A stretch of 45,334 bases of DNA from Blautia sp. (GTDB lineage: Bacteria; Bacillota; Clostridia; Lachnospirales; Lachnospiraceae), in contig JABUSW010000334.1 in NCBI GenBank assembly GCA_021443885.1, positions 1-45,334 on the forward strand. Reading direction: 5' to 3'. This document shows, piece by piece, positions 14,833 to 29,967 of the stretch; within the stretch, counting starts at the first letter, position 1; each line of letters starts with the position of its first letter. Position numbers and translations under genes: made by a program. The notes under the pieces are model-generated. The model did no database searches and had not been told where the DNA came from. It saw only the letters and a program-made list of their open reading frames with translations.

Positions 14833-14940
14833 ACTTTATATCGTATTCAGAATGATCGGTTTTGGTGCATGTCTGTTTTTTCAGTGCATACAACCGACTG
14901 CTTTGCGAACGGTATACCAGGAAAGTGAGGAACAGACAGA

Positions 14941-15305
14941 TGGCATTTGAACAGGAAGAACAGATCAGAATTGTTCAGGAAACGGTGGCAGGGAAAGAAA
15001 TCACCTTTGCGCATGTAATGGGTGGACCGGATCCTATTGTATATCAGAAGCTTGGCTTGAATCCGCAGGTGGATTATCGCTCATCTGCAATCGGAATTAT
15101 GAATATGACACCACCGGAGTCTGCTGTGATTGCATCGGATATTGCAGTGAAGAGCGGGAATGTGTATCTGGGGTTTGCAGATCGCTTCACGGGAACCTTG
15201 ATCATTACCGGGGAGATTTCGGATGTAATGTCTGCCCTGACGGAAATTGTGAATTATTTCCGTGATGAGATGGGATATGTGACCTGTAAGATTACCAAGA
15301 GATAG
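14941..15305 (+). CDS. Bacterial microcompartment shell protein, EutS/PduU-like
   Basis: MAFEQEEQIRIVQETVAGKEITFAHVMGGPDP...AIGIMNMTPPESAVIASDIAVKSGNVYLGFADRFTGTLIITGEISDV matches the EutS pattern. GTGAGG upstream of ATG 14941; the longer ORF from 14862 starts in the leader. Confidence 0.92.
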
Positions 15306-15315
15306 GTGTGATACT

Positions 15316-15744
15316 ATGAGTCAGATGACGAAAGAAGAACTTCTGGAAAGGATGTTTCGAGATGACTTCGAGAACCTGAAGGGGAAACGGCTTCGTATGA
15401 CCCGTGTACGAGTTCCGGGCAAAGAGGTGTGTCTGGCGCAGATCATCACGCCTTCGGATCCGTGTATATATCAGAATCTGGGGTTGCACATAGGCGTACA
15501 CGAAGGAGAAGATCATACCGGAGAAACCATAGGGATGATTCGCTTTACCCCGTGGGAAGCCGTGGTTGCTGCAGCTGATATTGCTATGAAGGCGGCTGAT
15601 GTACAGGTGGGATTTATGGATCGTTTCTGCGGTTCGCTGATTCTTCTGGGTGGCCTTACGCAGGTGCAGACAGCGGTGGAAGAGGTCGTTCGATACTTTG
15701 GGGAAGAACTGGGGTTTCGAACCTGTAAGGTACATAAAAGTTAA
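15316..15744 (+). CDS. Second EutS/PduU-like BMC shell protein with N-terminal extension
   Basis: 142 aa; VPGKEVCLAQIITPSDPCIYQNLGL...ETIGMIRFTPWEAVVAAADIAMKAADVQVGFMDRFCGSLILLGGLTQV, paralogous to the preceding gene. Confidence 0.9.
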   Translation: MSQMTKEELLERMFRDDFENLKGKRLRMTRVRVPGKEVCLAQIITPSDPCIYQNLGLHIGVHEGEDHTGETIGMIRFTPWEAVVAAADIAMKAADVQVGFMDRFCGSLILLGGLTQVQTAVEEVVRYFGEELGFRTCKVHKS

Positions 15745-15756
15745 AGGATAGAATGC

Positions 15757-16278
15757 ATGAAGAAACTGTTTTTGATGGGAAGAAGTGAAGCCGGTAAAAC
15801 TTCATTGACCCAGGCACTTAAAGGAGAAGAGCTTCATTACATTAAAACGCAGTATACAAACACCAATGACGATACCATTGATTCGCCCGGGGAATATGCG
15901 GAATCGAAAAGGTTCAGTGTAGGGCTTGCCTGTTTTTCCTTTGAGGCAGACGTAGTGGCCATTGTGCAGGCGGCCGATGAACCCTTCAGCCTGTTTGGGG
16001 CCAGTCTCCATTCCTTTATTTTACGACCATTGATCGGGGTGATCACAAAGACGGATTCGCCTTATGCAAATGTGGAAATGGTAAAGCTCTGGATGGAAAA
16101 TGCCGGATGCGAACGTATCTTTCTCGTGAATAACGTAACAAGGGAAGGGATACAGGAATTGATGGAATATCTGGAAGAGGATTTTCCAAAATTGACTATG
16201 GAGCAGGCAAAATTCAAACAAAGTCTGGGATTAAGTGAATGGGATCCGTTGCCGGAAGGCGTGGAATATCCAATATAA
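15757..16278 (+). CDS. EutP/PduV family GTPase-like protein
   Basis: 173 aa; MKKLFLMGRSEAGKTSLTQAL P-loop, TIDSPGEYAE, VITKTD; immediately downstream of the BMC shell genes. Confidence 0.92.
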   Translation: MKKLFLMGRSEAGKTSLTQALKGEELHYIKTQYTNTNDDTIDSPGEYAESKRFSVGLACFSFEADVVAIVQAADEPFSLFGASLHSFILRPLIGVITKTDSPYANVEMVKLWMENAGCERIFLVNNVTREGIQELMEYLEEDFPKLTMEQAKFKQSLGLSEWDPLPEGVEYPI

Positions 16279-20015: not shown

Positions 20016-21980
20016 TTGAGAAATCATACAAAATTTAAGCTGAGAAATCATGAAGAGTTGGAGGCTTTGCTGGAAGGAAAGGACCACTTGTTTGTCATTG
20101 CCTGCAGCAGGTGCTTTGAGATATTTGAATCTTTTGAACATCCTGACAGGGATACCTTTCTGAAGTTTGCCTGTGGTCAGGGGAAAAACATTACAGGACT
20201 GTTGCAGCAGGATTTTCTGTGCAACCGGATACAGACGAGTCGGAAACTTCCGGTTCAGATTCCGCAGGATACGGAAAACCTTGTTGTAATCGCCTGTGGA
20301 CTTGGCGTTCAGACAGTTGCGGTTCTGGCTGATATTCCGGTTATTGCCGCATGTAATACACTGCCCGACAGAGGTCACCACGGTATGGCATTGACGGAAA
20401 AGAAATGCGGTGCCTGTGCACAATGCTATCTGAATGTGACCGGAGGGATCTGCCCGGTGGTGGATTGTGCTAAGGGATTGCTGAACGGGCAGTGCGGCGG
20501 TGCAAAAGAAGGAAAGTGTGAAGTAAATCCGGATCGGAACTGTGCATGGAATCAGATACAGCAGCGTCTTGCGCAGCAAGGCCGACTGGAAGAATTCATT
20601 CAACAGCCGGTGCAAGTGCGGGATTATTCAAAAGTTAATCATAAAGTGATTCAGGATTATGTAAGATCTATTCGTGAAAGCCGGCTGGAAGGATATTACG
20701 GAGGGGTACACCCGTCAGAAAAGAAAGAACGTACTGCACAGCTTCCCTTGAAGCGTTTTCCCGCCTCTGATATCATCACCATTCCGGTGTCCATGCATAT
20801 GGGCGCCCCGGCGATTCCCGTCGTCTCGGTGGGAGATTACGTGATGGTGGGACAGAAAATCGCAAAGGCTGATGGCAGAATCAGCGCAAATGTGCATTCC
20901 AGCGTCAGCGGCACGGTGCTTGCGGTGGAACCGCGTCCTCATGTAACAATGGGCGAATGCATCTCTATCGTCATTAAGAATGACAGAAAAGAACGGCTGC
21001 ATGAGTCTGTACGGCCCAACAGACCCTTGGAGGAGCTGGATCGGGAGGAAATGATTGCTATTGTCAGAGAGGCCGGAATTGTTGGTATGGGAGGTGCAGG
21101 ATTCCCTACACATGTGAAGCTGGATCCCGGGATGCCCATCGATACAGTACTGTTGAATGGGTGTGAATGCGAACCGGGACTGACGGCAGACCATAGACTG
21201 CTGTTAGAGTATACAGACGATGTGCTCTTTGGGTTAAATGCCATTATTAAGACGGTAAATGCGAAAAAGGGCGTTATTGTAATTGAGGATAACAAGCAGG
21301 ATGCCATCGAAATTCTCAGAGAAAAGACAGCAGATCAGGCCCATATCGAAATCGTAACAGCACGAACCAAATACCCGCAGGGAGCGGAGAAGATGATGAT
21401 CCGGAGGGCAACCGGAAGGACTGTGCCAAGAGGCGGAATTCCGGCGGATGTGGGATGCATTGTAGATAATGTCAGCACCGGCAAAGCAATAGCAGATGCG
21501 ATCCGGAACGGTATGCCGCTGATTGAAAGAATCGTTACGATTACCGGGGATCGTATTCCGAACCCTGGCAATTTTATTACAAAAATAGGAACGAATATTC
21601 AGGAAATGGTGGATGCCTGCGGTGGGATAACCGGGGAGGATGTTACGATAAAGGCCGGAGGCCCCATGATGGGATACGAGGTGAACGGCAGTGATTTTCC
21701 GGTGAAAAAAGTTACAAATGGCTGGATCGCTGCAGACACGAATCATGCGATTCCCTGCGAATGTATAAAATGTGGCCGTTGTGTGGATGTTTGTCCTATG
21801 GAGCTGCAGCCGCTTTATTTTGTTCAGCTTGGCGGTAGACAGGATTACCAGGGGATGCTGAAACGAAACATTATGGATTGCGTGGAGTGCAGATGCTGTG
21901 ACTATATTTGCTCTTCCCGACTTCCCATTGTTTCCATGATCAAAATGGGAAAATCTGCAATAAAGGGGATGAAGCAGTAA
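20016..21980 (+). CDS. MetV-like (MTHFR C-terminal) domain fused to RnfC-like NADH/flavin/Fe-S subunit (RnfC2-like)
   Basis: 654 aa from TTG; N-terminus CGACAQCYLNVTGGICPVVDCAKGLLNGQCGGAKEGKCEVNPDRNCAW (MetV type), then RnfC region VREAGIVGMGGAGFPTHVKL and two 4Fe-4S motifs CIKCGRCVDVCP / CVECRCCDYIC. Confidence 0.88.
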   Translation: MRNHTKFKLRNHEELEALLEGKDHLFVIACSRCFEIFESFEHPDRDTFLKFACGQGKNITGLLQQDFLCNRIQTSRKLPVQIPQDTENLVVIACGLGVQTVAVLADIPVIAACNTLPDRGHHGMALTEKKCGACAQCYLNVTGGICPVVDCAKGLLNGQCGGAKEGKCEVNPDRNCAWNQIQQRLAQQGRLEEFIQQPVQVRDYSKVNHKVIQDYVRSIRESRLEGYYGGVHPSEKKERTAQLPLKRFPASDIITIPVSMHMGAPAIPVVSVGDYVMVGQKIAKADGRISANVHSSVSGTVLAVEPRPHVTMGECISIVIKNDRKERLHESVRPNRPLEELDREEMIAIVREAGIVGMGGAGFPTHVKLDPGMPIDTVLLNGCECEPGLTADHRLLLEYTDDVLFGLNAIIKTVNAKKGVIVIEDNKQDAIEILREKTADQAHIEIVTARTKYPQGAEKMMIRRATGRTVPRGGIPADVGCIVDNVSTGKAIADAIRNGMPLIERIVTITGDRIPNPGNFITKIGTNIQEMVDACGGITGEDVTIKAGGPMMGYEVNGSDFPVKKVTNGWIAADTNHAIPCECIKCGRCVDVCPMELQPLYFVQLGGRQDYQGMLKRNIMDCVECRCCDYICSSRLPIVSMIKMGKSAIKGMKQ

Positions 21981-21981
21981 A

Positions 21982-22605
21982 ATGTTAATAACAGAATTAA
22001 AACCGATGGAACAGATTCTCTCTTTGATTGCGCAAGATAAGATTTTCCTTTTGCAGTGCCATGGATGTAAGGAAATCCATTTTCCGGAGGATGCTGTTAA
22101 AGCTTTTGCAGAGAAACTGATTGAGGAAGATATGGTAACAGGACTTTCTACAATGGAGTATATCTGTAACCCGGAGAACAGCCGTTTATGCCTGGAGTAC
22201 CACAGGGATTCGATTAGGAATGCAGATGCGATCCTTGTGTTTGCATGTGGTGTCGGGGTGCAGACCATAGCAGAAATATTTCCGGAAAAAAGAGTATATG
22301 CCGGATGCGATACTTTTGCGCTTCCCGGATTTCAGGGGGTGACTCCTTTGGAATATGGCTGTGACCGATGTGGAACGTGCTATCTGAATCTTACCGGTGG
22401 AATCTGTCCGGTCACTGCTTGCGCAAAGGGGCTGCTGAATGGACAATGCGGCGGATCCAAGAACGGAAAGTGTGAGGTGGATCCGGACATGGACTGCGCA
22501 TGGGAACGAATTACCCGAAGACTGAAAATGCTTGGGAGATCGGAACTTATGCAGGGACCGGCTTTGATTCGGGACTTTGCTTTCAGTAATAAGGAAATGG
22601 AATAA
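21982..22605 (+). CDS. metV: MetV-like methylene-tetrahydrofolate reductase C-terminal/zinc-binding subunit
   Basis: 207 aa; CDRCGTCYLNLTGGICPVTACAKGLLNGQCGGSKNGKCEVDPDMDCAWERI; directly upstream of metF. Confidence 0.85.
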   Translation: MLITELKPMEQILSLIAQDKIFLLQCHGCKEIHFPEDAVKAFAEKLIEEDMVTGLSTMEYICNPENSRLCLEYHRDSIRNADAILVFACGVGVQTIAEIFPEKRVYAGCDTFALPGFQGVTPLEYGCDRCGTCYLNLTGGICPVTACAKGLLNGQCGGSKNGKCEVDPDMDCAWERITRRLKMLGRSELMQGPALIRDFAFSNKEME

Positions 22606-22613
22606 TTGAAATT

Positions 22614-23492
22614 ATGAGAATTACAGAATTGTTTGATCGTGGTGAATTTGTGACGACTGCTGAAGTAGGACCGCCCAAAGGGTTCCACGTGGAAAAAATC
22701 TTAGGGGATGCCAAAGCGTATTTTCATGGCGTTGCAGCCGTGAACGTGACGGATAATCAGTCTTCTGTGATGCGCCTTGGATCTCTTGCCACCAGCGTGG
22801 CATTAAAGGAAAACGGTATTACACCAATCTTTCAGATGACATGCCGGGACAGAAATCGAATCGCGATCCAATCCGATATTTTAAGTGCAGCAATGTTCGG
22901 TATTGAAAATGTACTCTGTTTAACGGGGGATCATACGACCATGGGAGATCATCCACAGGCAAAGCCGGTGTATGATCTGGATTCCGTTTCTCTGCTGCAT
23001 GCAGTGAAGATGATGGAATCCGGAGTGGATATGGCCGGAAATTCTCTGATTGGAGAACCACCGTGCTTTGCAAAGGGGGCCGTTGTATCTCCCTGCAGTG
23101 ATTCTTACGAAGCCCAGCTTGCGAAAATGGAGCGAAAGGCTTTTGCAGGGGCAGACTTTTTTCAGACGCAGGCAGTGTACGATGCGGAACGTTTTATACG
23201 GTTTATGGAGATTGCAAAGAAGTTTGGAAAACCGGTACAGATGGGCATTGTAATTCCGAAAAGTGCTGCAATGGCCAGATATATGAACCGGAGTATTCCC
23301 GGAATTCATGTGCCGGACAGTATGATCGCAGAACTGGAAGCCGATGTTCCAAGGGCGAAAGCCGGAATTACGGGTATTGAGATCGTTACCCGTATTATTA
23401 AGGAGTGCAGACCATATTGTCAGGGCGTGCATATTATGGCACTGGGATGGGAGGCAAAGGTTCCGGAAGTGCTGAAACGTGCGAATTTATAG
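22614..23492 (+). CDS. metF: Methylenetetrahydrofolate reductase catalytic subunit
   Basis: 292 aa; FVTTAEVGPPKG, TCRDRNRIAIQSD, LCLTGDH, FFQTQAVYD as in MTHFR. Confidence 0.93.
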   Translation: MRITELFDRGEFVTTAEVGPPKGFHVEKILGDAKAYFHGVAAVNVTDNQSSVMRLGSLATSVALKENGITPIFQMTCRDRNRIAIQSDILSAAMFGIENVLCLTGDHTTMGDHPQAKPVYDLDSVSLLHAVKMMESGVDMAGNSLIGEPPCFAKGAVVSPCSDSYEAQLAKMERKAFAGADFFQTQAVYDAERFIRFMEIAKKFGKPVQMGIVIPKSAAMARYMNRSIPGIHVPDSMIAELEADVPRAKAGITGIEIVTRIIKECRPYCQGVHIMALGWEAKVPEVLKRANL

Positions 23493-23606
23493 ATATGGAC
23501 AGCTATAAACGAAATTAAAGAAACTAATAAAATCAATAAGAGCAATGAACGCCGTCGGAATTGGCGGAAGTATACAAAAGTCTAAATATCGCAGGAGGAT
23601 ATTATC

Positions 23607-23915
23607 ATGCAGGCATTGGGAATGATTGAAACAAAAGGATATGTTGCATTTGTTGAAGCGGCAGACGTGATGGCGAAAACTGCTGCTGTGAAAATAATTT
23701 CCATGGAGAGGATTGGCTCCTCTCTGCTGACCATTATGGTAACCGGAGACGTGGGTGCTGTAGAGGCAGCAGTTGCGGCTGGCTGTGAAAAATGCAAAGA
23801 ATATGGCGACCTGATCGCCTATAAAGTAATTCCAAATCCACACAAAGCGCTGGAAGAAGTTCTTCCTTCCATGGCGAATTACTTTGATCCTGAGGAGGAA
23901 TTCAATGAAGAATAA
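23607..23915 (+). CDS. BMC-H hexameric microcompartment shell protein (EutM/PduA-like)
   Basis: 102 aa; MQALGMIETKGYVAFVEAADVMAKTAAVKIISMERIGSSLLTIMVTGDVGAVEAAVAAG...VIPNPHKALEEVLP; GGAGG RBS. Confidence 0.95.
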   Translation: MQALGMIETKGYVAFVEAADVMAKTAAVKIISMERIGSSLLTIMVTGDVGAVEAAVAAGCEKCKEYGDLIAYKVIPNPHKALEEVLPSMANYFDPEEEFNEE

Positions 23916-24090
23916 AATGGTAAATAATGTGCCGGAAACAGACGGGGAATGTCAGGAGCCTCTGAAAGACGAGGGATGGCATTGCGATACGTATTGCCGT
24001 AAGATCCGCCATATTACCTGTGAAGGAAAAGCGGGAGTCCGGGAGGGGGCAGAAAAACAATGTCCGTATCTGGATGAGATGCTCTATTAG
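23905..24090 (+). CDS. Small Cys-rich protein, uncharacterised (61 aa)
   Basis: ATG 23905 preceded by GAGGAGGAATTC; overlaps the BMC-H 3' end by 11 nt; MKNKMVNNVPETDGECQEPLKDEGWHCDTYCRKIRHITCEGKAGVREGAEKQCPYLDEMLY (5 Cys). Confidence 0.55.
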   Translation: MKNKMVNNVPETDGECQEPLKDEGWHCDTYCRKIRHITCEGKAGVREGAEKQCPYLDEMLY

Positions 24091-27669: not shown

Positions 27670-29256
27670 ATGGTAAAACAGGATATTTTAAATGGCAGTA
27701 CAGCGCTTGGTATTGAATTTGGCTCGACACGAATCAAAGCGGTATTGGTAGATTCCTCAAATGCTCCCATTGCATCAGGAAGTTACGAATGGGAAAACCG
27801 TCTGGAGAATGGAATCTGGACATATACACTGGATGATATCTGGACCGGATTGCAGGGCGCATATGCTGATATGGCGGCAGATGTTAAGAAACAGTACGAC
27901 GTCACATTGGAGACCATCGGTGCCATTGGTTTTTCTGCTATGATGCACGGTTATATGGTATTCAACAATGATGGTGAATTAATGGTTCCGTTCAGAACCT
28001 GGAGAAATACCATCACAGGAGAAGCTTCCGAGAAGCTGTTTAAGGAGTTTAATTATAATATCCCCCAGAGATGGAGCGTATCGCATCTCTATCAGTGTAT
28101 TTTGAATGGGGATGAGCACGTTAAGGACATTGATTATCTGGCAACTTTGGCTGCTTACATTCACTGGCAGCTCACGGGGGAGAAGGTACTTGGTGTTGGC
28201 GATGCTTCCGGTATGTTCCCCATTGATCCTAAGACAAAAGACTACGATGCAGCTATGATTGCAAAATTCGATGAACTGATCGCGGATAAAGGATATTCCT
28301 GGAGAATCAAAGATATTCTTCCGAAGGTTCTGGTAGCAGGGGAAAGTGCCGGCGTGTTGACAGAGGAAGGTGCAAAACGCCTTGATGTCAGCGGGAATCT
28401 GAAGGCCGGTATTCCGGTATGCCCTCCGGAAGGTGATGCAGGAACCGGTATGACGGCTACTAATTCTGTAAAACAGAGAACCGGCAACGTTTCTGCAGGT
28501 ACCTCCATCTTTCTGATGGCGGTTCTGGAAAAGGAACTCTCCAAAGCATATCCGGAGCTGGATATGGTTACCACACCGGACGGAAGCCTTGTTGCCATGG
28601 TACACTGCAACAACTGTACTTCTGATCTGAATGCATGGGTAGGTATTTTCCGTGAATTTATGGAATCCATGGGTATGGAAGTGGATATGAATAAGCTTTA
28701 TGGTACTTTGTACAATAAAGCACTGGAAGGCGACAAGGATTGCGGCGGTCTGATGTCCTATTGTTATTTCTCGGGAGAGCACATTACAGGATTTGACGAG
28801 GGACGGCCATTATTTGTTCGTAAACCGGACAGCAAGTTTAATCTGGCAAACTTTATGCGGGCGCATCTGTATTCCTGCATGGCTTCCTTAAAGATTGGAA
28901 TGGATATTCTGTCCAAGCAGGAAAATGTTACATTGGATGAATTGATGGGTCATGGCGGATTGTTCAAGACAAAAGGGGTTGGACAAAGCTTTATGGCAGC
29001 AGCCATGAATACCCCGGTTACGGTTATGGAAACTGCAGGAGAAGGCGGTGCATGGGGAATTGCACTTCTTGCTTCTTACATGAAGAACAAGGCTGAGGGA
29101 GAAACCCTGGATGTATATCTCTCGGAGAAGGTATTTGCAGGACAGGCCGGAAGCACATTGGCTCCGGAGGCAGCGGACATTGAAGGTTTTGAGAAGTTCA
29201 TGGATACATTTAAGGCAGCGCTTCCGGTTGAGCGAGCTGCTGTTGAGACGATGTGA
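27670..29256 (+). CDS. FGGY family carbohydrate kinase (probable L-ribulokinase, AraB-like)
   Basis: 528 aa; [17 protein letters not shown] phosphate-binding motif; [30 protein letters not shown]; adjacency to araD suggests ribulokinase. Confidence 0.85.
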
Positions 29257-29277
29257 CAAATCGCAGGAGGAAATGAT

Positions 29278-29967
29278 ATGTTAGAAGAACTGAAGAAAAG
29301 AGTATATGAAGCCAATATGCTTCTTCCAAAATATGATCTGGTTACATTTACCTGGGGAAATGTAAGCGAGATCGATCGCGAGACAGGATACTTTGCCATC
29401 AAACCAAGTGGTGTTGACTACGATGAATTGAAACCGGAAGACATGGTAATTGTTGATCTGAATGGCAATAAGATCGAAGGGAAATACAATCCTTCCTCCG
29501 ATACTGCTACACATGTAGAACTGTATAAGGCATTTCCGAATATCGGCGGTGTTGTACATACACATTCACCTTGGGCAACCAGCTGGGCCCAGGCCGGCAG
29601 AGCAATTCCCTGTTATGGAACCACTCATGCAGATTATATCTACGGAGAAGTTCCCTGTGCACGCTGCCTGACCGAAGAAGAACTGAAGGATTATGAGAAA
29701 AACACCGGTGTGCTGATCGCAGAAATGTTCAAGGACAAAGATTATGAAGCGGTTCCTGCAGTATTATGCAAAAATCATGGGCCATTCACCTGGGGTAAAG
29801 ACGGACACGAAGCAGTTCATAATGCAGTTGTTCTGGAACAGGTAGCAATGATGGCAGCTCGCTGTGAAAATCTGAACCCGCAGGTACAGCCTGCACCCCA
29901 GGAGCTTCAGGATAAGCATTACTATCGGAAACATGGTGCCAACGCTTATTACGGACAGGGTAAATAA
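29278..29967 (+). CDS. araD: L-ribulose-5-phosphate 4-epimerase
   Basis: 229 aa; [76 protein letters not shown]. Confidence 0.93.

Follow-up and report, generated by a model that had tools for sequence, protein, structure and literature searches.

A gene for a bacterial microcompartment (BMC) shell protein follows the genes of a methylene-tetrahydrofolate (methylene-THF) reductase in a Blautia genome. Is a C1/folate redox complex associated with a shell here, or do two unrelated units adjoin by chance? The window, meaning the whole stretch of DNA that was analysed (45,334 nt), comes from a draft genome (89% complete, 4% contamination), and its relatives are represented by sampled genomes. A preliminary description had listed a MetV-RnfC fusion, MetV, MetF, a BMC-H shell protein and a small cysteine-containing open reading frame (ORF) in a row. 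All five are present on the forward strand, and the 114-nt gap that it placed ahead of BMC-H is real. Families were assigned to four of the five ORFs with Pfam and NCBIfam, the exception being the small one.

The methylene-THF reductase genes

The first gene (20016-21980) encodes RnfC2, a 654-aa protein with an N-terminal MetV-type domain fused to RnfC. Its Pfam domains run from DUF5981 (residues 111-204) through RnfC_N (228-324) to Complex1_51K (350-493), with SLBB and 4Fe-4S (Fer4) domains in addition, and it scores 463 bits against the NCBIfam rnfC model TIGR01945, whose cut-off is 246. The start codon is TTG, likewise in its relatives. Next come the MetV subunit (21982-22605; 207 aa; DUF5981, E 5e-30) and MetF, the 292-aa catalytic subunit of methylene-THF reductase (22614-23492; PF02219 (MTHFR), E 1.6e-36). 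Domains and gene order thus bear out the acetogen-style MetF/MetV/RnfC2 reductase first proposed for this locus. The marks of a type III MTHFR are both present: metF, metV and rnfC2 are contiguous on one strand, and the MetV domain lies N-terminal to RnfC within RnfC2.

These three genes are an ordinary type III methylene-THF reductase, with earlier descriptions from Blautia and Acetobacterium woodii. Besides A. woodii, from which the enzyme is known, Blautia schinkii and B. wexlerae are reported to have it, and a MetV domain ahead of RnfC is a known feature of RnfC2 (PMC8760232, PMC8515935). In all three organisms it likewise consists of three subunits encoded in one operon. The enzyme itself is no different here, but a BMC-H gene comes after metF. 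The biochemistry, a 1:1:1 complex that carries out NADH-dependent methylene-THF reduction, comes from A. woodii only (PMC8760232). By analogy with that literature, from which both the donor and the electron path are taken, RnfC2 would oxidise NADH at an RnfC-type FMN site, and electrons would then pass via Fe-S clusters and MetV to the MetF flavin. MetF would use them for the step of the methyl branch of C1 metabolism in which methylene-THF is reduced to methyl-THF.

With the fusion protein as query, the same three genes were found in the same order at 21 loci elsewhere, mostly in Blautia, other Lachnospiraceae or Oscillospiraceae. MetV occupies the same position in these relatives and is 43-62% identical. 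MetF is present in 32 of the 64 genus genomes, and is 71-75% identical in the 31 others. Three loci were read closely, and in each the MTHFR genes stand alone between variable flanks. PDB RnfC chains match the fusion at E 2e-115, and RnfC structures span its RnfC part only; no solved structure turned up for MetV. The possibility that the RnfC-type domain resembles PduS more closely than RnfC was rejected, the score against the rnfC model being well above its cut-off. The genome's own PduS is a separate gene, located on contig C141 within a complete BMC locus, and it aligns to the fusion over residues 342-642 only, with 31% identity.

Shell genes in the window

The gap between metF and BMC-H (23493-23606) is AT-rich (GC 0.34, against 0.44-0.50 in the genes), with a strong Shine-Dalgarno sequence ahead of BMC-H. 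Its fold is not unusual (z 0.15), and the scan of the gap returned no terminator-like or promoter-like site above threshold. The strong independent promoter that the preliminary description had named as evidence against its shell-associated complex was therefore not among the sites detected at that threshold.

The BMC-H gene (23607-23915; PF00936, E 5.6e-25) encodes a 102-aa, EutM-like shell protein of a rare orphan lineage. The ORF is intact, and a 98-residue alignment to its two orthologs gives a dN of about 0.2 with dS saturated. Since this pattern points to purifying selection, BMC-H is, judged from its substitutions, a working gene. At the matched edge and pore positions it has residues that occur commonly in other BMC-H proteins. 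A degenerate shell copy was considered on account of an Asn at the position taken, by PduA numbering, to match the edge Arg-79. This was rejected, Asn being found there in 44 of 132 aligned BMC-H rows. The 61-aa ORF with several cysteines (23905-24090, ATG at 23905) starts inside BMC-H, in an 11-nt overlap that takes in the stop, and has a good Shine-Dalgarno ahead of it, and so it looks translationally coupled to BMC-H. It matches no family in Pfam or NCBIfam and has no tblastn relative in the fetched loci outside the source genome. Ten nucleotides after it starts a gene for a C39-like protein that probably has a membrane segment at its N-terminus. Further along, at 27670-29967, a family search identified an FGGY sugar kinase and an L-ribulose-5-phosphate 4-epimerase, followed by a two-component system and then sugar ABC transporter genes, these last two named by reading alone. 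This region appears to be a locus for pentose utilisation that has no relation to the BMC.

As for the window's BMC content, the preliminary description was right about BMC-H, but it left unmentioned two EutS-like BMC proteins and an EutP/PduV GTPase about 4-5 kb upstream. These are EutS1 (14913-15305; PF00936, EutS model 83 bits, under the model cut-off), EutS2 (15316-15744; PF00936, EutS model 67 bits) and the EutP/PduV-type GTPase (15757-16278; PF10662, E 4.7e-44), all on the forward strand. Together (14913-16278) they are a stand-alone BMC satellite, separate from the metVF unit. In relatives, 18 loci were examined in which EutP is not part of a full BMC locus, and all 18 have the same triad (identities of 79-93% for EutS1, 60-80% for EutS2 and 65-89% for EutP). 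Among 19 triad loci, no flanking gene is conserved. Orthologs of EutS1 (E<1e-60) were found in 35 of the 64 genus genomes, and are 82-90% identical in the 34 others. MetF and the EutS1 satellite co-occur in the genus above expectation (24 shared genomes, Fisher p 0.002, with shared ancestry and draft completeness uncontrolled).

Conservation of the neighbourhood and compartments elsewhere in the genome

Conservation of the metVF-rnfC2/BMC-H neighbourhood across relatives, which the association of a C1/folate complex with a shell would lead one to expect, was not found. BLAST and HMM examination of the flanks revealed BMC genes beside metVF in none of the 21 loci from other genomes. Three of these loci have less than 1 kb after metF, which leaves 18 that are informative downstream.

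The search for BMC-H orthologs covered 64 genomes of the genus, 397 of the family and 392 of the order (partly overlapping samples). Among these they occur only in G019 (68% identical) and G285 (74%), so that the lineage comprises three genomes in all, the source genome included. The 392 order genomes, searched with a three-sequence profile, yielded only paralogs at about 1e-33 or weaker. In a tree whose deep forks are unresolved, the three proteins form one clade (support 88/100) on a long stem, apart from the main-locus hexamers. Within the genus, an ortholog is present in 2 of 64 genomes, one of which is without a MetF match. Both nearest orthologs are away from metVF, although three known members make a small sample of neighbourhoods. 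In G019 (a 1.6-Mb, 92% complete draft), the gene has a GGGtGRT gene on one side and a formate/nitrite transporter gene on the other (L129, contig C38, 1621-4798), and neither MetF nor the MetV-RnfC fusion was found. In G285, the fusion is on contig C31 and BMC-H is on C3, without BMC or C1 partners around it. The pair was thus seen in the source genome only, among everything sampled, which is the first of the outcomes that the preliminary description had listed as refuting its proposal.

The proteins themselves point the same way. RnfC2, MetV and MetF align end to end with homologs from BMC-free loci, and since they end where those homologs end, no encapsulation-peptide-like or other terminal targeting extension is present. 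Of four papers found that join bacterial microcompartments, methylenetetrahydrofolate reductase and Wood-Ljungdahl, none describes an encapsulated MTHFR in its title or abstract.

The source genome contains 11 BMC matches on four contigs. The complete BMC locus to be looked for in the full genome was found on other contigs, with an aldolase, aldehyde dehydrogenase, PduL, BMC-P, PduS and BMC-T. It extends over C1 (reverse complement) and C141, whose ends share an exact 56-nt overlap inside a BMC-H gene (L012 1-4691 and L013 1-5076, G000). Its enzymes are a class II aldolase, a PduP-like aldehyde dehydrogenase, a zinc-dependent dehydrogenase, an Fe-alcohol dehydrogenase, PduL and PduS; its shell genes are four BMC-H, EutN and BMC-T; and a DeoR-type regulator was named by reading. 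By gene content, the criterion used for this assignment, the locus resembles the PVM-like (sugar-phosphate aldolase) BMC type (Sutter et al., 2021; PMC8217296), with which it has in common the class II aldolase, PduP-like aldehyde dehydrogenase, PduL, EutN, PduS, BMC-H genes and BMC-T. A EutS-EutP pair stands ahead of the aldolase in G471 and G480, but is absent from the source genome's copy. At the right end of contig C35 (L014), a partial BMC-H gene comes after carbamate-kinase-like, carbamoyltransferase-like and peptidase-like genes, the first two named from their sequence without a family search. This is a second BMC locus, truncated where the contig stops. Its BMC-H has a close relative in 37 of the 64 genus genomes; a specific tie between the orphan BMC-H and this type of compartment was rejected, the orphan being found in only 2 of the 64.

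Explaining the adjacency

The best explanation, with a probability of about 0.85, is that two unrelated units stand side by side: a type III MTHFR operon, and a satellite BMC-H with its coupled 61-aa ORF, the BMC-H likely serving a distant shell. For this species, chance is then the most likely reason why a satellite shell gene adjoins an enzyme operon of a known kind. This alternative was already raised in the preliminary description, and it gains support from the unconserved adjacency and the full BMC locus elsewhere. Because of that complete PVM-like locus, BMC-H makes best sense as a satellite shell gene. At the level of sequence, it conforms to the published definition of a satellite locus (PMC4207490), which has only PF00936 or only PF03319 genes and a complete BMC at a distance. 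The ten proteins scanned here include one PF00936 and no PF03319 member, and the C1 and C141 locus has BMC-H, BMC-P and an aldehyde dehydrogenase. Described satellites likewise have shell genes only, with a complete BMC distant in the same genome (Axen et al., 2014, PMC4207490; Sutter et al., 2021, PMC8217296), but here the BMC-H lineage is very rare and the partner BMC is only a candidate. BMC-H would most likely supply a hexameric tile to the shell of a compartment whose genes lie elsewhere in this genome; the best candidate is the PVM-like BMC, and the alternative is the BMC at the end of C35. Counting against this explanation, no terminator separates metF from BMC-H, so that the two may be co-transcribed, and most genus carriers of the PVM-like BMC are without a BMC-H of this lineage. 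The formate/nitrite transporter beside the G019 ortholog is another possible C1 connection.

The one-strand adjacency and the gap without a terminator are also what a genuine C1/folate compartment would offer, with the type III MTHFR docked to or enclosed by a shell containing BMC-H, and the RnfC domain is indeed distantly related to PduS (the 31% identity given above). We consider such a compartment highly improbable: the adjacency is not conserved among the genomes sampled, the MTHFR proteins are without an encapsulation-type extension, the RnfC part scores as RnfC and not as PduS, and BMC-P, aldehyde dehydrogenase and PduL are all absent beside metVF and BMC-H. Just as improbable is the broader idea that the rare BMC-H lineage was recruited to C1 metabolism, beside MetVF/RnfC2 here and the formate/nitrite transporter in G019, and surrounds C1 enzymes or formate uptake with a shell or scaffold that has gone unrecognised. 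The missing terminator would equally suit a purely regulatory coupling, in which BMC-H is co-transcribed with metVF and the distant BMC's shell composition tracks the redox or C1 state without physical contact; separately regulated satellite shell genes have been proposed to tune permeability (PMC8217296). This is unlikely, as the placement is unconserved and as BMC-H, set off by a long AT-rich gap, has a strong ribosome-binding site to itself. A single rare gene with no adjoining enzyme partners might instead be the decaying remnant of a lost BMC locus. The intact ORF, the low dN against saturated dS, the common edge and pore residues and the good Shine-Dalgarno make this very unlikely.

Reading the locus as a known enzyme operon beside a satellite shell gene places both parts in known classes, and prevents a false lead, that of a folate microcompartment drawn from one chance neighbourhood. 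BMC shell genes are widely scattered in the genomes of the genus, as with the EutS-EutS-EutP triad; about half of them have its EutS1. What matches shell genes so far apart to a single compartment is a testable question.
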